IMG/VR virus record: IMGVR_UViG_3300037234_000293
Span: 1-26,772 of that record
Origin: a virus
DNA: 26,772 nucleotides
Reading direction: 5' to 3' (one strand)
Under the pieces are notes generated by a model. The model was not told where the DNA came from, ran no database searches, and saw only the letters and a list, made by a program, of their open reading frames with translations. Position numbers and translations under genes: made by a program. Position 1 is the stretch's first letter. Every line of letters begins with the position of its first letter. Below, piece after piece: positions 1,805 through 26,772 of this stretch.

Positions 1805-3007
1805 ATGGCTAGAAGAATTGCAATCCCATCTAAGCATGTCCAATTAAAGCTAGTTGGTTCAAGGGATGCGTTGGTAATTCCGAGAGTACAGCGACTAACT
1901 ATTACCGCAGATCGTCCATCAACTGACATTGATGAACTAGGTAATAGGCTACACGCTGGTACTGTTGAAGATGTACCACAAATTACTGCTACCTTCCAAG
2001 CGATGGACGTTGGTATGAAAGTGCTTGGTATTCTAACTGGAACTGATGCTGCCGCATGGCCTGCGTCTGGAGTAAGTATCACCGATATTGGTGAAGTTGA
2101 TCTAATTGCTCATATTAGAGATTACACTGCAAATGACTATGTAAAGATGGCACACGCACGTAGATGTACAGTTCGTGATTTTTCATTCAACTATTCAGTT
2201 GAAGGAGAATCAACAGAAGAATATACCATCATTGGAACACAAAAGAGATGGTTCAAGAATGATGTTGTTGCTATCAAATATACATCAGGCGGTACAGGAC
2301 CTCTTGACTTAGTAGAAACACCAGCAAATTTGAAAAATGGTGACGAATGTATTTCAGTTATCGTTGATGGTGTCTATTTTGATAGAGTACCATCAACACC
2401 GGACCCTGGAGAATACAGTGTTTCAACTGATGAATTAACATTAGGAACAGCACTTGTAGACCAATGCATTGCTATTTTCCAATCAGCTTTATCAACTGAC
2501 GTATGGACAGATGTATCTGACGATACAATGCCAGCGGCTATTCGTGGTCTTGATGTACCTGTAAAATTACTTGCAAATAGTATTGCAAGGGTACAATCAG
2601 TGACCTTGAATGGTACTTTCAACCCCGAAACAGTACGTGAAATGGGCAACCGTGACGTAGTTGGATATCAGCTACAGGTGCCAAGTGTAACTGGAACAAT
2701 TACCGTATTAGATACTGATACTGAATTAGTATCACTATTTGCAACTGGTGAATTGGCTCCAACAGGAATCACAGAATTTCAAGCTTCGGAATATACAGCA
2801 TCAGGTATTACATTAGATGTGTTCTTACAAGACCCAGCAGATAAGGTAGAACCATTTGAAATCTTGAAGACAGTTTATGTACCTGGACTAGTTGTAACTA
2901 GTGATGGATTTACTTCCAACATAAATGCTAACGCACAACAAACGTTTGATATCAAGTCTGAAGACGGAAACATTATTGTTTATAGCGGAATCAGACCTGG
3001 TTCGTAA
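1805..3007 (+). CDS. Major tail tube protein with two tandem tube domains
   Basis: A 400-residue beta-rich protein lying just before the chaperones and tape measure, where the tail tube gene sits in long-tailed phages. Two segments align without gaps at an offset of 235 residues: residues 27-70 and 262-305. Both begin RVQ, share ELGNR or EMGNR 17 residues later, then a Gly, a VP pair, alternating Thr residues and an Asp. This indicates an internal duplication of the tube domain. A duplicated tube domain is known in phage T5 pb6, which forms trimeric rings with pseudo-sixfold symmetry; a similar trimer is my inference here. The start ATG has a GGAG site upstream. The gene is followed by a strong terminator, as expected for an abundant structural protein. 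No sheath gene precedes it, which argues against a contractile tail. Confidence 0.85.
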   Translation: MARRIAIPSKHVQLKLVGSRDALVIPRVQRLTITADRPSTDIDELGNRLHAGTVEDVPQITATFQAMDVGMKVLGILTGTDAAAWPASGVSITDIGEVDLIAHIRDYTANDYVKMAHARRCTVRDFSFNYSVEGESTEEYTIIGTQKRWFKNDVVAIKYTSGGTGPLDLVETPANLKNGDECISVIVDGVYFDRVPSTPDPGEYSVSTDELTLGTALVDQCIAIFQSALSTDVWTDVSDDTMPAAIRGLDVPVKLLANSIARVQSVTLNGTFNPETVREMGNRDVVGYQLQVPSVTGTITVLDTDTELVSLFATGELAPTGITEFQASEYTASGITLDVFLQDPADKVEPFEILKTVYVPGLVVTSDGFTSNINANAQQTFDIKSEDGNIIVYSGIRPGS

Positions 3008-13992: not shown

Positions 13993-16143
13993 ATGCCAGT
14001 CGTAACTAATTTAGAACAAAAAATACTTCAACTAATAAGACAGGACAAATACTCATGGTTTACCGTTGGTGTGAACCTTGCAGGCGAACCTGGTGCGTCT
14101 GGTGGTTCAGGCGTTCCTCCTGGGGGTTTCACCGGTCAGCTAATTCAAAGCAGAGTTACTTATGATACTAGTGAGGCGGCTTCATTAGATGTACCCGTTT
14201 CATTGAGTGGAGCATCACTGCTTCATAACCTAAATAGAATTAGATACTGGTTGAATGATAAAAATCCTGCATTTATAGTTCAGGATGACGGAGTGGAGAT
14301 CGCCAGCGGAATAACTGTAATGGACTTCATTGGTGCGCCCGTTACTGTTGAATTGGTTGACGGATATACAGACCGAGTTGCAATAACTATCTCTGGAACT
14401 GGTGGTGGCATAGGCAGTAGCGGTATAGTACTTGTATCCGCCGATGATACTTTGGCAAACTACTTAGAAAATAAGCTAACTGCCGCCAGCTCAAAAATTA
14501 CCGTTACAACTGCAAATCCAGGAGGTAATGAGGAAAGGCAAGTTGATTTAGGAGCAGTAAATATTGACGACCTAGATGACGTAGTAATTGTATCTGTGGG
14601 CAACGATGAAATCCTTGGCTACAGCGGTGGATGGATGAACAGAACTATAGGCGAGGCGGCTATAGCTCCAGCAGTACATACTCACGTAGAAACAGACGTA
14701 ACTGACCTAGAACATGACGCTGTAAAACTTCAAGGAACAGACGTAAGTGCTATTTCTCCAGCTAACTCAGAGATGTTGATTTATGCGGGCGGGGAATGGG
14801 CACCATCTGGACTTCCCGCTGGTGGTGCCATAGATGTACAGGAAGATGATGCACCGAAGGTATCTGATGTCACAATCTTAAACTTCGAGGGTGGAGCAAC
14901 CGTTACAGACGAGGGTGGCGGTAAAGCCACTATTCTAGTCAGCGGTGGTGCTGGCGGTGGTGAACAGGTAAAGGTTTCGTCTGATGACACCACAGAAGGT
15001 TATTTAGAGGATAAAATCGTAGAAGGTGATTATATTACTCTTACAGTACTAAATCCTGGCGGAGACGAAACACTTGAAATTACTTCCACTGCCAGTGGTG
15101 GAGGTGGAGGGGGAGATGTTTCAATTGAGGATGAAGGTGGTGAAATAACATCTGCTGTAACATCTCTTGATTTTGTTGGGGACCAAATTACTGCTACAAA
15201 TATAGGGGATGATGTAACTGTTACTTTTTCTGGTATAGTAGTTACACCACCACCATTTATAGGTTGTAAAACATATCGAAATACAGATCAACAATTAGCC
15301 TCACATAATGGCTGGCAAAATATTGACTGGACAACAGAAGATTATGATTTGGACTCAATGTGGTCAGCGGGGGCTAACCACAATGTTAACACCGCTGGAT
15401 ATTATAATATGATTGGACAGGTAACTATGAGTGGTGCATTACCCACTACAGAGAACTTTCAATTTGGAATCTTCAAAAATAGTACACTTGTTTCTACAGG
15501 TTGGGATGGTTGGTATTCAACAGCCGAAGGAAATCGGACACTTCTCTTGTATGCTGAATCATACTTTTTAGATACAGATTACATAAGACTTCAACTAGTT
15601 TGTGCAACATCAGACCAACCCTATGTTGTAGCTGGAATTGAGAACAGTTTCTTGGCATCACACATGATTCAAGGCGCTTTCATTGAAGGAGCAACTCCAG
15701 AAGTTTGTAGGGTAGTGTGGCAGAACTATCTAACCGTTCCTGATGCCACCGATACACCTGTTCCTTGGGATGCCGCAACTTATGATACTGGTGACTTTTG
15801 GGATGGTGGTGATGATACAAAGTTTACAATCTCAACAGATGGTTATTATAATTTGAAAGCAAGTGCTCTATGGGAAACTGTTTACTATCAAGGTGGAACT
15901 CCATTTGGAATCCGATTAGCTTTTCGTAAGAATGGTTCTACAAGAATTGCAAATCATTGGGATTGGAATGATATAGACACTGGTGGTGCCCGTTCCCAAG
16001 GACTTTCAACACATATTGCAACAGACGTTTATTTAGAAAATGGTGATTATGTTGAAGTAGTTGCATACCATGAAAAGGGTTCAACTGCAAATGGTATTAT
16101 TAGAGCTAATGATACATATGCAACAATACAAAGATTATCATAA
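13993..16143 (+). CDS. Modular tail fibre with duplicated beta modules and two C-terminal jelly-roll-like domains
   Basis: A 716-residue fibre-type protein. An N-terminal helix and Gly-rich linker (GEPGASGGSGVPPGG) lead into repeated modules. Module A, with D-DG...VT-DF.G...V, occurs at residues ~97-136, ~283-320 and ~377-415. Module B, with DD-T...YLE-K...NPGG-E, occurs at ~146-190 and ~326-370. Between them is the common fibre pattern LDDV...GGW and an HTH tripeptide (VHTHVETDVTDLEH, ~residue 233), a motif often metal-binding in trimeric fibres. From ~425 to ~565 and ~573 to 716 two related domains resemble C1q/TNF-like jelly rolls: an opening W strand, a GYYN strand, a KNST or KNGST turn, then a D-YI or GDYVEV strand. 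The protein probably binds the host surface as a trimer. The jelly-roll call is by pattern only. Confidence 0.85.
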   Translation: MPVVTNLEQKILQLIRQDKYSWFTVGVNLAGEPGASGGSGVPPGGFTGQLIQSRVTYDTSEAASLDVPVSLSGASLLHNLNRIRYWLNDKNPAFIVQDDGVEIASGITVMDFIGAPVTVELVDGYTDRVAITISGTGGGIGSSGIVLVSADDTLANYLENKLTAASSKITVTTANPGGNEERQVDLGAVNIDDLDDVVIVSVGNDEILGYSGGWMNRTIGEAAIAPAVHTHVETDVTDLEHDAVKLQGTDVSAISPANSEMLIYAGGEWAPSGLPAGGAIDVQEDDAPKVSDVTILNFEGGATVTDEGGGKATILVSGGAGGGEQVKVSSDDTTEGYLEDKIVEGDYITLTVLNPGGDETLEITSTASGGGGGGDVSIEDEGGEITSAVTSLDFVGDQITATNIGDDVTVTFSGIVVTPPPFIGCKTYRNTDQQLASHNGWQNIDWTTEDYDLDSMWSAGANHNVNTAGYYNMIGQVTMSGALPTTENFQFGIFKNSTLVSTGWDGWYSTAEGNRTLLLYAESYFLDTDYIRLQLVCATSDQPYVVAGIENSFLASHMIQGAFIEGATPEVCRVVWQNYLTVPDATDTPVPWDAATYDTGDFWDGGDDTKFTISTDGYYNLKASALWETVYYQGGTPFGIRLAFRKNGSTRIANHWDWNDIDTGGARSQGLSTHIATDVYLENGDYVEVVAYHEKGSTANGIIRANDTYATIQRLS

Positions 16144-21621: not shown

Positions 21622-22236
21622 TTAGACCCAATCTATCGCTTCTCCTTTTTGACCTTTAACACTGTTGTCCCAATTTTCCAGTATGTCGATTCCATTGTCA
21701 TGGAATATACCGAGCATTCTATTAAACTGTTCGCCAGTGTAGGTTAACTCTGCTCCACTAGACTCAACTATCTTGAGTGACTCAAGAGTCAATCCTTGCG
21801 ATTCCATCCAATGCTTAACGAAGTGACTCATGATTGTACTACTGCCGCTCCTTTTATCTGGCGTGGGAATCTTACCCTTGCATATTGAAGCCGCAAAGTA
21901 AGACAGCGTATACCAGAATTCACGCTGAGCGATTCCCTTTGGTATTGTGCCATAGCGTAAAGCATTGAAGAATTTACCAGCTAAATCCTTGCGCTTCTCT
22001 CCTGTCTCAAGATTCCTTGCGGGTTGGAATTCTGACAACTCAACTTTCCTTTTGTCTTTCCCTTTAGTCCATACCGCAACAAAAGAGCGAGTCATATTTC
22101 CAACTAGCTGGGTGGGGATATTCGTTATTAACTCCTTTCCATTTAAGGGATTCCTTTTCACTCGGAAAGCGTCAACGATTTGAACAAAAGCGTTGACAAT
22201 GGTTTGCATGGGTGACTCAATCTTTAGCATAGCCAT
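21622..22236 (-). CDS. Unknown protein, last gene of a minus-strand operon
   Basis: A 204-residue soluble protein with an AAGGAG site before the ATG at 22236, which overlaps the stop of the upstream membrane peptide gene (TAATG). The N-terminal part is helical (TIVNAFVQIVDAFRVKRN). The middle contains a basic stretch (KGKDKRKVELSEF) and REFWYTLSYFAASICKGK. The C-terminal part looks like a small winged or helical domain with ELTYTGEQFNRMLGIF. I do not recognise the family. Being transcribed opposite to the virion genes, it is more likely an early or regulatory product than a structural one. A terminator follows. Confidence 0.8.
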   Translation of the reverse strand: MAMLKIESPMQTIVNAFVQIVDAFRVKRNPLNGKELITNIPTQLVGNMTRSFVAVWTKGKDKRKVELSEFQPARNLETGEKRKDLAGKFFNALRYGTIPKGIAQREFWYTLSYFAASICKGKIPTPDKRSGSSTIMSHFVKHWMESQGLTLESLKIVESSGAELTYTGEQFNRMLGIFHDNGIDILENWDNSVKGQKGEAIDWV

Positions 22237-22340
22237 TACCTACTCCTTAATGAGAGAGCGGTTAAATACCAGAGTAGAGCTATAGCCCCAACAATGGCAA
22301 CCGCCACAACTAGGTGGGTATCTGCTACGGGTAAAAACAT
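22236..22340 (-). CDS. Membrane peptide (34 aa)
   Basis: A 34-codon gene with AAAGGAG (22347-22353) 6 bases before the ATG at 22340. The product is one membrane helix, residues ~10-30 (VVAVAIVGAIALLWYLTA), after a short polar start (FLPVADTH) and before a basic end (RSR). The stop overlaps the next start as TAATG. It is preceded by a -10 box at 22388-22393. The strong ribosome site, membrane composition and coupling make a real gene likely. Its function is unknown. Confidence 0.75.
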   Translation of the reverse strand: MFLPVADTHLVVAVAIVGAIALLWYLTALSLRSR

Positions 22341-22387
22341 AGGCATCTCCTTTGTGGTGGGTGGGTGGTGGTGGGTAGACATAGTCC

Positions 22388-22417
22388 ATTATAGCATAGG
22401 TGGAGACGCTGTGCCTA
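22388..22417 (-). promoter_or_regulatory. Probable promoter for 22340 to 21622 operon
   Basis: On the minus strand a perfect TATAAT (22388-22393) is preceded, after 18 bases, by TAGGCA (22412-22417), which matches TTGACA at four positions. The predicted start lies about 35-40 bases before the first gene's start codon. The -35 is weak, so activation by a factor bound upstream is plausible. Confidence 0.55.
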
Positions 22418-22440: not shown

Positions 22441-22642
22441 CCTATCTTATTAGTGTGATTATACCAGCTTTTGGGTACGGATATATAACGTTAAAGATAA
22501 ACATTATCCGATTTGAATTGGACTAATCCTACCTTATTACATTTCTAGTGGATCGGGAAAAGACAAATAAGACCTTATTAGTCTGATTTAGCGCCAGGAA
22601 CGGGTGCGGGTACCAAGGCACCTATTCAGACCTTATTTATCC
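22441..22642 (+). repeat. Four CTTATTA-type repeats
   Basis: CTTATT cores begin at 22446, 22533, 22574 and 22632. They sit in related contexts: TCCTATCTTATTAG, TCCTACCTTATTAC, AGACCTTATTAGTCTG and AGACCTTATTTATCC. The second pair share AGACC, and the third copy is partly palindromic (AGAC...GTCT). They lie between the GTAC array and the promoter region. They could be operators or replication iterons; the sequence does not decide. Confidence 0.65.
22458..22466 (-). promoter_or_regulatory. Candidate extended -10 promoter
   Basis: The minus strand reads TGGTATAAT, an extended -10 element (TGn plus perfect TATAAT) with no convincing -35. It would give a longer leader for the same operon as the promoter at 22388-22417. 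One CTTATTA-type repeat overlaps its downstream side. Confidence 0.35.
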
Positions 22643-23101
22643 AGTACCAACTCCCCTGAGTAACGGGTACCGAGAAGTCTTGTCGCTTGTCGGGTACCAG
22701 TGTAATGAGTAACGGGTTCCATTTAGCCTTGTCATGTACGGGTACCAGTACCCATTAATCTTGTCGCTGTACCAACCTGGGGCCAGGAACCGAGAATTGC
22801 TATCAGGTACCAGCATACCGCTGATCTTGTCATAATAGTGGATAAACTTTATCATATATAATCCTATATATACTGTACCAGGCTCTAGGTAACAGCCGCT
22901 GTACCAAATGTAGGTAAATGAACCAAATTGCGGTTCAGTCCTACTAATTCGCCAAAAGGTACCAACATAATGAGTTAATTGGTACAATGTCACTAAACTT
23001 GGCATTCCGATAAGATTTTTGGCATAATATCGCAATTTATGTGTTTGTGTATACAAAAACTAGATTCTACCATTGTCATACTATATACTCAATACTGGTA
23101 C
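22610..23101. repeat. GTAC-rich array 1 with CTTGTC motifs
   Basis: GTAC begins at 22610, 22644, 22667, 22694, 22736, 22742, 22748, 22769, 22807, 22875, 22901, 22959, 22982 and 23098, mostly as GGTACC, CTGTACC or CAGTACC. Degenerate GGTTCC and GGAACC sites lie in gaps near 22716 and 22788. CTTGTC occurs at 22679, 22728, 22760 and 22826, and TGAGTAACGGGT at 22657 and 22706, a 49-base partial duplication. About 1-2 GTAC would be expected by chance in 400 bases. Confidence 0.85.
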
Positions 23102-23110
23102 AATGATGTT

Positions 23111-23140
23111 AAATAAAAAGAGACCCTGTTATGGGTCTCT
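23111..23140 (-). terminator. Intrinsic terminator ending operon 25026 to 23161
   Basis: On the minus strand AGAGACCC and GGGTCTCT form an 8-base perfect stem with a 6-base loop, followed immediately by TTTTATTT. It lies 20 bases beyond the stop of the gene at 23161-23421. Its tail, TCTCTTTTTATTT, is identical to that of the terminator at 25415-25458. Confidence 0.92.
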
Positions 23141-23160
23141 CTCTATTCTAGCATGTAATA

Positions 23161-23421
23161 CTATTGTTTGGGTACCTCCGGTCTTGACAAGGATAACCAT
23201 GAATATAATGGTTCAATCCTTGTTACGGGTGTAGAGAGTACTGATGGGTTCGTGAAGTCTGGATTCAGGTGCTCTCTCTCTGGTGTGGATATAAGCATGG
23301 CATCTCCCAATCGCACCGGATAGAGAAGTTTACCGTCTTTTAACTTCTTACTACCACCCATCACCTTTAGACCATCAACCATGTAGATGGCACCTGATAC
23401 TGTTGTAACTTGGAGTATCAT
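23161..23421 (-). CDS. Unknown small protein (86 aa)
   Basis: An 86-residue protein beginning MILQVTTVSGAIYMVDGLKV, with AAAGGAG 9 bases before the ATG. The spacer contains GTACCC. The N-terminal half looks like a small beta barrel: two strands, a GGSKKLKDGKLL turn, then PVRLGDAMLIS. The rest is proline-rich and perhaps unstructured. It is the last gene before the terminator at 23111-23140. No family is recognised; the pattern of a short barrel closing with 'LGDAMLIST' recalls small phage proteins of unknown role. Confidence 0.75.
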   Translation of the reverse strand: MILQVTTVSGAIYMVDGLKVMGGSKKLKDGKLLYPVRLGDAMLISTPEREHLNPDFTNPSVLSTPVTRIEPLYSWLSLSRPEVPKQ

Positions 23422-23439
23422 GGGTACATTCTCCTTTCT

Positions 23440-23658
23440 CTAGTACAGTCTGCTGGTTTCTTGGGTCAACTCCCAATGTGTGGCACCCCTGTTAATCCAT
23501 GCCTTCATACTAGCAATCATGGTACTTATTGCTATTTCCCACCCCTTTACCACTTCACGGGCCACTAATGCTCCATCCTTATCATATACCAGAATTATGT
23601 ACATCTTGTCACTCCTTTGGTACTTCAGTCGTCTTTCTACGGATTTGGACACGAACAT
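23440..23658 (-). CDS. Unknown small protein, two possible starts
   Basis: The longer form (72 residues) starts at 23658 behind GAGGAG, four bases after the upstream gene's stop. A second in-frame ATG at 23604 has a better ribosome site (AAAGGAG, spacing 7) and gives a 54-residue product that begins MYIILVYDKDGALVARE and looks like a complete small domain (strand, turn, strand, helix). Either or both may be used. The helix STMIASMKAWINRGATHWEL is the longest regular element. The family is not recognised. Confidence 0.7.
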   Translation of the reverse strand: MFVSKSVERRLKYQRSDKMYIILVYDKDGALVAREVVKGWEIAISTMIASMKAWINRGATHWELTQETSRLY

Positions 23659-23661
23659 GGT

Positions 23662-23916
23662 TCAATCTCCTCTCATCACTTCATTCATAGCGATCAGGTA
23701 CGCACAGAACTCAAAGCCAGGTGGTATAGGCTCTCGGTTCCAGCCCACTTGACAGAACTCCCCGCCATCGTGGTGATACTCAGTACCCATCGGGTAGGTA
23801 ACAGTGATGTTTGTGGGTCTACCACAGTTTGGACACTTTACATTGAGAATCTCATAACAGACCCACTGAGCGTTATGCCGTATCTCTTGCCGGTCCACTA
23901 ACTCAACTTCAATCAT
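23662..23916 (-). CDS. Small zinc-finger-like protein (84 aa)
   Basis: An 84-residue protein starting at 23916 behind AAAGGAG. It contains KCPNCGRP near residue 28, a His pair (EYHHDGG) and two later cysteines (EFCQVGW and EFCAYL), so a single zinc site is plausible. It begins with a beta segment, MIEVELVDRQEI. It is a middle gene of the operon that starts at the promoter 25073-25101. The function is unknown. A regulatory or host-interaction role would be a guess. Confidence 0.75.
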   Translation of the reverse strand: MIEVELVDRQEIRHNAQWVCYEILNVKCPNCGRPTNITVTYPMGTEYHHDGGEFCQVGWNREPIPPGFEFCAYLIAMNEVMRGD

Positions 23917-23938
23917 TATCTACTCCTTTCCTGGCATG

Positions 23939-24520
23939 TCATATGTAGCTGGGGTCAAGCCCCAACTCATAACCATGCGGATATGGAAGCGGTGCGAAAC
24001 GATATGCTTCACTCTCAACGTCCGATTTTATGAAGTGTGGCACCTCCCTTTTGGTCCACTTATGCAATCTCACCTTCTGGAAGTAGTAGTACAAACGATA
24101 TGCCGTAACTGGGTCGTATTTTTTAAACCGCTCACTTACACAGGGATAGAATGGGGTCATACCACCCGATGATAACTCACAACAGTTATCATTCAGCGTA
24201 ATCATCATCCGGTGCATGTGATCTCTCACACCTAGCAGTACATCAGATGTGGCGTGACGTTTGCCAAACCGGTGCGTATACTCCCTTCCTAACTGTATAC
24301 CCAATTTCAACAGCCAATGCCAGTTTTCAAATGATTCTCCTACCCACTTGGTACATGGGTGATTGATATAACATGCCTTGTAGCCAAAGTCGATGTCGGC
24401 CCGTACTCTCATTACAGTACTGAGCATCTGGGCCGATTCAACTATCATCTTCACTACATGCTTATCAACATGGTATCTAGCACAAACTTCTGGGTCATCG
24501 TGTAGTACAAAGATGTTCAT
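23939..24520 (-). CDS. Conserved-type phage protein starting MNIFVL (DKHVVKM motif)
   Basis: A 193-residue protein with the signature MNIFVLHDDPEVCARYHVDK followed by HVVKMIVESAQMLSTVMR, then NHPCTKWVGESFENWHWL, a basic-aromatic region with MTPFYPCVSERFKKYDPVTA, and a KWTKREVPHF ending. I recognise this as a protein common in tailed phages, sometimes annotated as a pyrimidine-dimer glycosylase-like protein on weak grounds. A true catalytic assignment is not justified here. The invariant His, Lys, Trp and Asp residues suggest an enzyme. The start overlaps the upstream stop (ATGA) and has GGAGG before it. Confidence 0.8.
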   Translation of the reverse strand: MNIFVLHDDPEVCARYHVDKHVVKMIVESAQMLSTVMRVRADIDFGYKACYINHPCTKWVGESFENWHWLLKLGIQLGREYTHRFGKRHATSDVLLGVRDHMHRMMITLNDNCCELSSGGMTPFYPCVSERFKKYDPVTAYRLYYYFQKVRLHKWTKREVPHFIKSDVESEAYRFAPLPYPHGYELGLDPSYI

Positions 24521-25026
24521 TTGATCCTCCGGTCCAAGTATAGGATGTCATCACAATCTTCTGAATGTCGGTGCAACGCATTAGCATACTGTTCTATAAT
24601 CACCTTCCTTGATTTGAACCGGCTATTCGGCTCGAATATGTTACGCCCACACATGGGACAGCGAAACTCTAGTACTGCACCACGCTTGGGGTAACGGCGA
24701 CGTTTTATGGTCCCAGGATATGGGAGTCCACTCCATTTATAGCCATAACATGCAAGTACCCACAACATGCCTTGCACCGCAAATGGAGCTTTTGTTTTGT
24801 AGTCCTTCATGTCGGCCCGCATTAATAGCGTGGGTATTGTCCGATTGAAGGCACCACGATGAGCCAAGATAACAGATATTTTGATCTCTGGAACCAGATC
24901 AAGTACCAGGCCCAAGTTGTACATCTTGGCTACGATTGCCTTTGCATCGTCCCAAGAAGGACTGAACACCTCGCCAGTGACGAAGGTTGTCCCAGTCTCC
25001 TTTATGCCCATAGATTTTTTCTTCAT
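24517..25026 (-). CDS. Unknown protein with C-terminal zinc-finger-like motif
   Basis: The first gene behind the promoter at 25073-25101. The start chosen is the ATG at 25026, four bases after AAGGAGG, giving 169 residues. An ATG at 25059 would lie only a few bases from the predicted transcription start. The N-terminal and middle parts (AKAIVAKMYNLGLVLDLVPE and FAVQGMLWVLACYGYKW) look like a helix-rich fold. The C-terminal part has CPMCGRN, then H-x-H...DC about 30 residues on, compatible with one zinc site. The gene probably codes for an early, non-virion protein. No family is recognised. Confidence 0.8.
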   Translation of the reverse strand: MKKKSMGIKETGTTFVTGEVFSPSWDDAKAIVAKMYNLGLVLDLVPEIKISVILAHRGAFNRTIPTLLMRADMKDYKTKAPFAVQGMLWVLACYGYKWSGLPYPGTIKRRRYPKRGAVLEFRCPMCGRNIFEPNSRFKSRKVIIEQYANALHRHSEDCDDILYLDRRIK

Positions 25027-25072
25027 TGGACCTCCTTTTCCGGTACAATCTACTGACATATTTTCTCACCTA

Positions 25073-25101
25073 ATTGTATCATAAGGTGCAATCTATGTCA
25101 A
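25073..25101 (-). promoter_or_regulatory. Strong sigma70-type promoter of operon 25026 to 23161
   Basis: The minus strand reads TTGACA (25096-25101), a 17-base spacer, then TACAAT (25073-25078), five of six matches at -10 and six of six at -35. The predicted start near 25066 leaves a ~40-base leader that includes GTACC and the AAGGAGG site. The first GTAC of array 2 is three bases upstream of the -35 box. Confidence 0.9.
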
Positions 25102-25104
25102 CAG

Positions 25105-25402
25105 GTACATCGTCCCTGATACCAAGGTACGTACCCAGAAAGATTGGTTTGTACGTCTTTAAAAGGAAGGTTAGATCGTACCGCAAGGAACCGGTGCACG
25201 TACCTTAGGTCCTGGAACCCAGGTCATGGTACACGTACATTGCATCAAGGTACCAATGGCCCGAAAACTCCGACTTTGTACAAAAAGGCACCTGCACCTA
25301 TACCAATCCACCTTGTACCAGCAATCCTGGGTTCCCGTACCTTGAGCGTAAATTGGACGTACCTTATCCGAATTGGTACGTACCTAGGTAACGGCATTGT
25401 AC
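25105..25402. repeat. GTAC-rich array 2 upstream of the minus operon promoter
   Basis: Sixteen GTAC tetramers start at 25105, 25127, 25131, 25151, 25178, 25200, 25229, 25235, 25250, 25278, 25315, 25337, 25359, 25376, 25380 and 25399. About one would be expected by chance. Many steps are 19-24 bases, near two helical turns. Most sites read GGTAC or GTACC, and two are GGTACGTACC double sites. Degenerate GGAACC and GGTTCC sites fill some gaps. No gene is seen here: open frames on either strand lack ribosome sites. Confidence 0.9.
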
Positions 25403-25414
25403 CACGATTGTCAC

Positions 25415-25458
25415 AAATAAAAAGAGATGGTGGGGAGGGACCCAATGAGGTCCCTCCC
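25415..25458 (-). terminator. Hairpin terminator before array 2
   Basis: GGGAGGGACC and GGTCCCTCCC pair perfectly over 10 bases around a 6-base loop (25433-25458). On the minus strand this is followed, after a short spacer, by TCTCTTTTTATTT, the same tail as at 23111-23140. The spacer of about 9 bases before the T run is longer than ideal, so efficiency is uncertain. Confidence 0.7.
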
Positions 25459-25501
25459 GCTTCTATGGTACTCTCTATAATCATTTATCCCTTTTAGGAA
25501 C

Positions 25502-25523
25502 TCAGATCATATCGCACCTCCTT
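25502..25523 (-). other. Perfect ribosome site before a two-codon ORF
   Basis: On the minus strand AAGGAGG (25517-25523) stands 6 bases before ATG ATC TGA (25510-25502). No longer reading frame uses this site: the neighbouring GTG frame stops after seven codons, and the next ATG, at 25484, runs through the terminator hairpin. The stretch lies between two terminators (25561-25604 and 25415-25458), so it could be a short separate transcript. It may be a minigene like lambda bar, a leader, or the remains of a lost gene. Confidence 0.5.
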
Positions 25524-25560
25524 ACAGTGTGAAGTTTTGTATCGGTATAATAGAATAATT

Positions 25561-25604
25561 GCAAAATATGACCCAAGCCTCATTATAATGTCAAGGCTTG
25601 GGTC
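25561..25604 (-). terminator. Terminator after gene 25653-26153
   Basis: GACCCAAGCCT and AGGCTTGGGTC form an 11-base perfect stem (25570-25580 with 25594-25604) around a 13-base loop that itself holds the palindrome CATTATAATG. On the minus strand it is followed by ATATTTTGC. It lies about 48 bases beyond the stop of the gene ending at 25653. Confidence 0.8.
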
Positions 25605-25652
25605 GGTTCACGTTAGGCGTGATCCTTATTCAATTCAGGTACAAGGTAAAGC

Positions 25653-26153
25653 TTACAGCCAAACGTCGATCTCCTCTTCCTCGTCCCCAGTCTTGGTTTC
25701 CCGTACCCGCTTTGGAATGGGGTGTTTCTGCACAGACACCTTGATTAATTCTCCGGTGCTGATTGCGGCTTTCATCCACATTGGGACGGGTGCCTCATAC
25801 GTACCGCCACGACTCTTCGCTTTCGCAATAAGCGTGTACTCATTCAGGTACGTCAACTTCTTGGCATTGGCGGCGACCCAGATTGCGGCACCACCTGTGC
25901 TGTCCCCCCTTCCGCCAAGCGTACCCAAGATCATGGCACAAATGAAGGCTACATTCGCTGACCCAATCTTGGTCTGCTCCTTCTTGTTCTTGGATACTAC
26001 CGTTGCAACTACATCACCATTGGGATGAAGTAATTGCACCAGGTCGTACTGATTTCGAACCGTTGTCTCAAGATTGTACAGCGGTTCCTGGCCCAGCGTG
26101 CGAATTGCTGGTAGTGAGATAGCTTTTCTCGGTGCGGCTTGTTGTTTAGCCAT
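25653..26153 (-). CDS. Unknown protein with acidic C-terminal tail
   Basis: A 166-residue protein. The start chosen is the ATG at 26153, with GAGGAG about 10 bases upstream and an overlap of 8 bases with the preceding gene. A TTG at 26210 is an unlikely longer start. The N-terminus is basic and helical (AKQQAAPRKAISL). The middle has beta segments (YDLVQLLHPNGDVVATVVSK) and a Gly-rich hydrophobic stretch (AFICAMILGTLGGRGD). It ends in KTGDEEEEIDVWL, an acidic run capped by hydrophobic residues. Such tips are typical of single-stranded DNA binding proteins, but no OB-fold motif is clear, so the role is unassigned. Confidence 0.75.
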   Translation of the reverse strand: MAKQQAAPRKAISLPAIRTLGQEPLYNLETTVRNQYDLVQLLHPNGDVVATVVSKNKKEQTKIGSANVAFICAMILGTLGGRGDSTGGAAIWVAANAKKLTYLNEYTLIAKAKSRGGTYEAPVPMWMKAAISTGELIKVSVQKHPIPKRVRETKTGDEEEEIDVWL

Positions 26154-26340
26154 TTCGAGTGTCTCCTCTAGTATCTTGAGCTGAATATCCGGTGCATTTG
26201 GCACGTTCAACAGGAGATGCTCTTAATATGTGGGCCATCTCGCCAGATTTGGCACATTTCCTTAATCTTGAATATACAGTCCATCCATTTGGTCCAAATA
26301 CACTAATTGTAACCTTATATATCTGCTGGGGACGAAGCAT
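26146..26340 (-). CDS. Small basic protein (64 aa)
   Basis: A 64-residue, strongly basic protein (starts MLRPQQIYKVTISVFGPNGW) with AAGGAG 8 bases before the ATG at 26340. Its stop overlaps the start of the next gene, which supports coupling. The beginning looks like a two-strand beta hairpin, followed by a helix with RLRKCAKSGEMAHIL and a basic, Gly- and Arg-containing tail. Two cysteines are far apart, so a zinc site is unlikely. No family is recognised. Confidence 0.75.
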   Translation of the reverse strand: MLRPQQIYKVTISVFGPNGWTVYSRLRKCAKSGEMAHILRASPVERAKCTGYSAQDTRGDTRNG

Positions 26341-26398
26341 ATTTTATCTCCTTCCACATCAACAAAACGGTATCAATGGGATCGCTGGGGTACGATAT

Positions 26399-26772
26399 TT
26401 ATCCTACTGGCATAGGCTGGACGCTAATTATACGCTGCATTATTTTATGGCCCAATATAAATGTTTCGGGCCATCGGTAATCGTTCTGCATCGCATCCAG
26501 CACTTTGGCATCGGACCGGCACTTGTCATAGACCCGTGCGGCTAACGCCAATGCTTCCTGATCTTCATAGAACCCGCAAATTGGGGTTCCATCCCTACGC
26601 TGGGCCGTAAAACAGATTTTCAATACGGGAATTGCAATCAACCAGGGACTATTTCCTCGGTGCGAACTGTCATCTTCTGTCTTAGCATCCTTATCTATTG
26701 GTGCCATGTTCATAATCCACACCACTTGATTAACTAATTCAGAATGTGCACCTGCAACAATCTGGTCAGCCT
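26399..26772 (-). CDS. Unknown protein, 5' end outside window
   Basis: The frame ending at the TAA at 26399-26401 is open to the right window edge (codons ADQIVAGAHSELVNQVVW precede the first start-like GTG at 26725). No ribosome site stands before any internal start, so the gene very probably begins beyond the window. The visible part has a mixed alpha/beta pattern with LIAIPVLKICFTAQRR, YEDQEALALAARVYDKCRSD and an ending in QRIISVQPMPVG. I do not recognise the family. It is the upstream gene of the small operon 26340 to 25653, separated by 58 bases. Confidence 0.7.
   Translation of the reverse strand, partial: ADQIVAGAHSELVNQVVWIMNMAPIDKDAKTEDDSSHRGNSPWLIAIPVLKICFTAQRRDGTPICGFYEDQEALALAARVYDKCRSDAKVLDAMQNDYRWPETFILGHKIMQRIISVQPMPVG

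Follow-up and report, generated by a model that had tools for sequence, protein, structure and literature searches.

What might read the sixteen copies of GTAC that a tailed phage has gathered into 298 noncoding bases beside a promoter, and how far does the signal to which they belong extend? In this study, we addressed this question in the window, that is, the whole of IMG/VR contig IMGVR_UViG_3300037234_000293 (26,772 bases), a tailed-phage fragment whose plus strand carries tail genes, one for a tape measure protein among them, along with genes for a baseplate-like protein and a glycosyl hydrolase 25 endolysin, and whose minus strand carries, from 21.6 kb to the contig end, a block of small genes referred to here as the early block (Table 1). 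The GTAC excess reported by the initial annotation is real: the tetramer starts at 25105, 25127, 25131, 25151, 25178, 25200, 25229, 25235, 25250, 25278, 25315, 25337, 25359, 25376, 25380, and 25399, compared to a window mean of 1.41 per 300 bases and to 3.3 ± 1.7 (maximum, 11 in 5,000) in composition-matched first-order Markov sequence, and no other of the 256 tetramers is as strongly clustered. The steps of 19 to 24 bases described there are present, as is the minus-strand −35 box (TTGACA at 25101-25096, with a 17-bp spacer to TACAAT) of a strong promoter-like site that the array directly adjoins, and the second array to which the annotation alluded was found as well (array 1). The terminator that it placed at the end of array 2 stood in part, in that a hairpin at 25436-25461 reads as one, but the U-run lies about 8 bases past the stem and our scan did not flag the hairpin. 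Each array has a terminator-like hairpin of the upstream minus-strand genes on one side and a promoter-like site on the other. Further along, at 25565-25620, a hairpin GACCCAAGCC..GGCTTGGGTC has a loop that, read on the minus strand, gives the promoter-like string TTGACATTATAAT; the stem around it is terminator-like.

Table 1. Features of the early block in the window and their counterparts in two related phages
Feature	Position	Strand	Remarks
GGTNC-rich early domain	22474..26772	.	Reaches the contig end and may extend further
Array 1	22603..23110	.	Second dense noncoding GGTNC/GTAC array
Array 1 counterparts	G005 L145:6778-6930; G029 L148:7267-7557
Array 2	25104..25405	.	Dense GGTNC/GTAC sites, noncoding, upstream of a minus-strand promoter
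Array 2 counterpart	G005 L145:8486-8769
Promoter, σ70 type, TTGACA-17-TACAAT	25073..25101	-	TGCACC site within the spacer
Promoter counterparts	G005 L145:8468-8496; G029 L148:4300-4328	- (G005); + (G029)
Promoter-like TAGGCA-18-TATAAT	22388..22417	-	Downstream of array 1; consensus match only
Terminator-like hairpin and U-run of upstream minus-strand genes	25418..25461	-	Bounds array 2
Terminator-like hairpin AGAGACCC..GGGTCTCT, then T-run	23112..23140	-	Bounds array 1; inverted repeat I18
Basic protein, 204 aa	21622..22236	-	Adjoins the domain from outside in 3/3 phages
Small genes 23161-23421, 23440-23658, 23662-23916	23161..23916	-	Coding, with lattice sites
PHROG 624/Pyr_excise-like protein, 193 aa	23939..24520	-	Gene carries lattice sites
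Basic zinc-finger-like protein, 180 aa, pI 9.7, charge +13.7	24517..25059	-	First gene after array 2
Genes 25653-26210 and 26399-26725	25653..26725	-	Conserved in 3/3 phages; coding, with lattice sites

Using a tail-tube-like protein (1805-3007) as query, we obtained 43 related loci and found a syntenic early block in two relatives, G005 (96 kb; L145) and G029 (77 kb; L148), of which the latter has a near copy, G007. The identities to the window's proteins in the two relatives are 64% and 48% for the 24517 protein, 48% and 47% for the 23939 protein, 53% and 39% for the 25653 protein, 60% and 35% for the 26399 protein, and 41% and 33% for the 21622 protein. As single queries, 24517-25059, 21622-22236, and 13993-16143 each returned no close relatives, and neither the 24517 nor the 25653 protein had a relative among 50,697 phage records; the PHROG 624 protein was discarded as a route to relatives, belonging to a widespread family whose matches have flanks without GTAC arrays. 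In both G005 and G029, the early block forms the end of a long early operon and adjoins late genes. Between 20 and 40 kb, G005 (L160) further encodes amidoligase-type and glutamine amidotransferase genes, two DNA methyltransferases, and a ribonucleotide reductase. One tail-tube relative (52% identity; L166, DAOVVF010000015.1) sits on a MAG contig that bears the label Candidatus Parcubacteria; as a pointer to the host this is weak and does not suffice to name one.

The comparison with these relatives bears out the expectation, raised by the initial annotation, that the sites would be kept without the sequence between them: arrays recur at the same place in both phages, and in array 2 an alignment of the window with G005 covers just the 62 bases nearest the promoter (71%), the remainder sharing sites and no alignable intervening sequence. 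The promoters of the three 24517 homologues—TTGACA TAGATTGCACCTTATGA TACAAT, TTGACT GGTACTGCACCCTATGA TAGAAT, and TTGAAA TACAACGTACCATATAG TATACT—all bear GYACC, as GCACC or GTACC, at the identical position of the spacer. Array 1 has some features of its own. Between 22679 and 22830, CTTGTC occurs five times (0.1 expected), alternating with GGTACC, and may be a second motif of diverged units with GGTACC-GTTACT, a string that array 1 has in common with 49-bp repeats of G029 (L148:7434-7560). To its left (22521-22650) lie ACCTTATTA/CCTTATT repeats with inverted repeats (GACTAATCC..GACCTTATTAGTCTGATTT), and the leader of the 21622 gene contains a CACCCACCACC-type repeat in both the window (22330-22375) and G005 (L145:6425-6460).

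The over-represented word is not GTAC, as had been proposed, but GGTNC. When 3,328 short patterns were ranked without prior choice, by how far their counts in each early block exceeded a first-order Markov expectation, GGTNC/GNACC came out on top for the three blocks combined, and it headed the list for every phage in a separate run on patterns with four fixed bases; with the window taken by itself, the five-base word GTACC has a slight lead over it (12.8 compared to 12.5). Counting both strands, we observed 108 sites in the window's GGTNC-rich early domain (34.0 expected) and 179 in that of each relative (49.5 expected in both), an enrichment of 3.2- to 3.6-fold compared to 1.13- to 1.22-fold in the remainder of the same genomes. 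The corresponding z scores of 12.5, 18.2, and 18.2 were reached in none of 346 control windows of 4 kb from other viral DNA, where no pattern exceeded z = 10.5, and chance is rejected as the cause of the GGTNC/GTAC excess. The word prefers T before and, in part, C after it, giving TGGTNC(C). CGGTGC, found nine times in the early block (about 0.7 expected; 23990-26660) and mostly on one strand, the plus strand, forms part of the GGTNC excess and in part reflects His-Arg codons; at the end of another genome, G002, GTTCG/TTCGA is enriched, which we presume to be tRNA T-arm sequence and which forms no lattice.

The sites are not only frequent but also spaced with a regularity that we describe as a lattice. 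Pooled over the three phages, same-strand GGTNC distances peak at 21, 40, 59, 79, and 98 bp, and the positions of antisense relative to sense sites peak at +7, +27, +47, and +66 and at −13 and −33. Jittering the sites by up to 12 bp abolishes the period (power, 8.2; control maximum, ≤2.9). The period is sharpest in coding DNA, which alone gives a power of 9.1 at 19.5 bp (jitter maximum, 3.4; background genome DNA, 2.2), compared to 3.3 in the dense arrays (jitter maximum, 3.0), and it is significant in the coding DNA of each phage separately, at 19.25 bp (5.0; jitter maximum, 3.5), 19.5 bp (10.4; 3.8), and 19.75 bp (5.7; 3.8). A rigid 19.77-bp lattice accounts, to within about 4 bp, for 53 of 55 unit coordinates in a 2.15-kb stretch of G005 (R = 0.77; jitter maximum, 0.42). 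Over a long range, the pitch is about 19.5 to 19.8 bp, and the register is kept for up to 2 kb. Among 219 patterns with one free position, GGTNC stands alone with 9.1, followed by the overlapping ACCNA (4.2) and all others (≤3.7). In coding DNA, the two half-sites of one node seldom occur together and two-node steps are commoner than one-node steps, which suggests that about one site per 40 bp is enough; near-cognate words on the lattice positions of G005 gave no clear signal. An apparent second lattice in G019 and G021 (CNGNTA, period 22) proved to be a 42-nucleotide coding tandem repeat in a structural gene, a case that shows what tandem protein repeats look like and sets them aside as the source of the period.

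These results change the extent of what had been annotated. The cluster itself is real, yet the phenomenon spans 22474 to the contig end, coding DNA included; likewise, an array of sites acting at the DNA level, which the initial annotation had proposed as an extended operator, an enhancer-like element, or a nucleoprotein site, is supported, but with sites running on through the genes at fixed lattice positions, it exceeds an operator or enhancer that stands before a single promoter. We asked what the coding sites owe to the proteins by shuffling synonymous codons within genes, leaving proteins and codon usage unchanged. The six conserved genes of the phages hold 155 sites, compared to 83.6 ± 6.3 in the shuffles (maximum, 107); by phage, the figures are 48 compared to 26.9 ± 4.0, 92 compared to 53.7 ± 5.1, and 84 compared to 47.7 ± 4.6. 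The shuffles also lower the periodicity, which the observed period exceeds, and as they fall short in both density and period, composition and codon usage are rejected as the cause. Moreover, at positions where two phages encode the same peptide, 30 of 37 directed comparisons keep GGTNC (81%) and 24 of 34 keep GNACC (71%), whereas the figure for all words of this form is 41%; a few other words reach similar values. The lattice is selected at the DNA level, and it is present in three related phages; these share homologous genes and some sites and therefore do not represent three independent inventions.

This evidence bears directly on the possibility that the arrays are ordinary extended operators, which bind a conventional repressor or activator at the two promoters, with the coding sites a side effect of composition or amino acid content. 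The position of the arrays between a terminator-like hairpin and a σ70-type promoter, the site inside the promoter spacer, and the density of the arrays, which at 36 to 47 sites per kb are the most enriched part of the domain, would all suit such operators. We nevertheless consider this reading unlikely, given that site counts in coding DNA are 2.3 to 3.6 times expectation and the period is sharper there than in the arrays, that density and period are removed by synonymous shuffling, and that sites are retained between phages above most words. The palindromic GTAC words could also form the stems of structured RNAs, and the arrays do fold more strongly than their dinucleotide shuffles (z = −2.4 to −4.5). 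This excess vanishes once the sites are held fixed and the other bases are shuffled (z = −0.4 to −0.8; +1.5 for the minus strand of array 1), no Rfam family matches, and the lattice lies on both strands and within genes, which leaves structured RNA very improbable. Both RNA structure and ordinary operator clusters explain the data less well than would a cooperative protein filament.

What geometry would such a protein impose? The full dyad, GGTNC-NN-GNACC, recurring every 19.7 bp fits a protein dimer for every two DNA turns of 9.9 bp. Free DNA makes one turn about every 10.5 bp, so that contacts spaced at 9.9 bp per turn would stay aligned only if the DNA were wrapped in a left-handed sense or overtwisted, and a left-handed wrap would amount to roughly one superhelical turn per 165 bp. 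The claim that proteins at successive sites would sit on one face of the DNA holds under the same proviso, the long-range pitch being about 19.5 to 19.8 bp and not 21. With the sites masked, the autocorrelation of AT dinucleotides is strongest at 9.8 to 9.9 bp in all three domains (z of about 4, 4, and 1.3 compared to background windows). Around GGTNC, AT dinucleotides oscillate with a 9.9-bp period whose phase is +3.4, +3.7, and +3.3 bp in the three phages, matching the dyad at +3.5 that follows from the opposite-strand offset of +7, and whose amplitude is 1.75, compared to 0.41 in the background. Against jittered sites, the amplitude is clear only in G005 (1.95; maximum, 1.19), lies at the edge of the null in the window (2.09; 2.10) and G029 (1.30; 1.37), and falls inside it for the coding DNA alone of these two. 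Dinucleotide periodicity of 10 to 11 bp is common in genomes and need not imply bending (PMC7537859), so that we treat the phased AT dinucleotides as supporting evidence only. The early block resembles this genome-wide periodicity in that AT dinucleotides recur near the DNA helical repeat and differs from it in that the wave is phase-locked to GGTNC and absent around GGTNC elsewhere in the same genomes.

Taken as a whole, the data lead us to lean slightly towards a reading in which the early block is the template of a regular nucleoprotein filament that shuts off early transcription. A two-fold symmetric, cooperative protein, probably encoded by the phage, would contact GGTNC half-sites of the dyad once per ∼19.7 bp, or two turns at ∼9.9 bp; it would nucleate at the dense noncoding arrays beside the early promoters, and the filament would spread from there through coding DNA and, by coating it, switch off early transcription. 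As early-type promoters lie within the block, early shut-off is the simplest role, although the silencing is deduced from position only, and the lattice may instead serve activation, replication, partition, or packaging. A narrower proposal, to which we give about an even chance, is that the coding early genes contain a "chromatin code" in which one word per two turns, together with AT dinucleotides once per turn, would set the register of a repressive filament over several kilobases. Alternatively, a wrapping protein could use the lattice for another DNA transaction, such as partition, replication control, packaging, or protection of the entering DNA. The pitch and the phased AT dinucleotides do suggest wrapping, and the block's place where the early operon of G005 and G029 gives way to late genes would suit such a function; with the domain restricted to the early block and its promoters, and with the replication genes of G005 far from it, we regard this as quite improbable.

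If a filament forms, the leading candidate for its putative subunit, judged by sequence features, is the protein encoded at 24517-25059, which has the highest positive charge in the block, carries a CPMCG..H..C motif, and is well conserved. Its gene itself contains lattice sites and, were the protein the binder, would be autoregulated by array 2. The protein encoded at 21622-22236 is a second candidate. Fold searches gave no convincing match for the low-confidence model of the former and no known fold for that of the latter (pLDDT, 79.5). Among the early proteins of the window, which is a genome fragment, no known DNA-binding family or fold was matched except for the PHROG 624 label "DNA binding protein," and the true binder may be encoded outside the fragment.

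Specific binding sites usually form short clusters in front of genes. Here, genes carry a lattice of sites in fixed register for kilobases and conserved proteins as well, so that the same DNA serves two codes. If a protein reads this lattice, it would represent a sequence-programmed, heterochromatin-like form of phage silencing, with contacts every 19.7 bp and wrapping at 9.9 bp per turn. We found no described system of this kind in the open-access literature, and two known systems come closest. The stoperators of cluster A mycobacteriophages are, in the part of their description drawn on here, many short specific sites in early genes and at promoters, mainly in one orientation (PMC6550527), and scattered repressor sites of this type, blocking elongation in a temperate phage without a filament, might be envisaged for the early block, which shares with them the numerous specific sites across early genes and at promoters. 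We judge this improbable: both orientations are used here at a defined offset (sense/antisense, 52/56 in the window and 72/107 and 74/105 in the relatives), and the positions obey a fixed lattice, whereas that part of the source describes no fixed pitch for stoperators (PMC6550527). Moreover, the genes scanned in G005 (PolA, DnaB, and RNR) give it the look of a lytic phage, and the proteins scanned in the window and G005 include no integrase or immunity repressor.

The second system is protein p6 of phage φ29, whose dimers wrap DNA every 24 bp, reading its bendability, and shut off the early promoter C2 (PMC10899789). No p6 homologue was found among the early proteins of the window fragment. 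The proposed filament would resemble p6 in its dimers at regular intervals, its wrapping, its preferred nucleation regions, and its shut-off of an early promoter; where p6-type complexes make contacts at a fixed interval along kilobases of viral DNA, the early block shows a sequence lattice of about 19.5 to 19.8 bp that may mark such contacts. However, p6 forms a right-handed superhelix over the whole genome at 24 bp (PMC10899789), whereas the early-block lattice is local, has a pitch of about 19.7 bp, and consists of a specific word, its short pitch implying left-handed wrapping or overtwisting if a protein follows it; where p6-type complexes have no specific recognition sequence, GGTNC is both enriched and phased. 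Neither a p6-type nor a stoperator assignment accounts for the early block in full. Should the reader of the lattice prove p6-like, the system would be less new and kin to the known p6 complexes.
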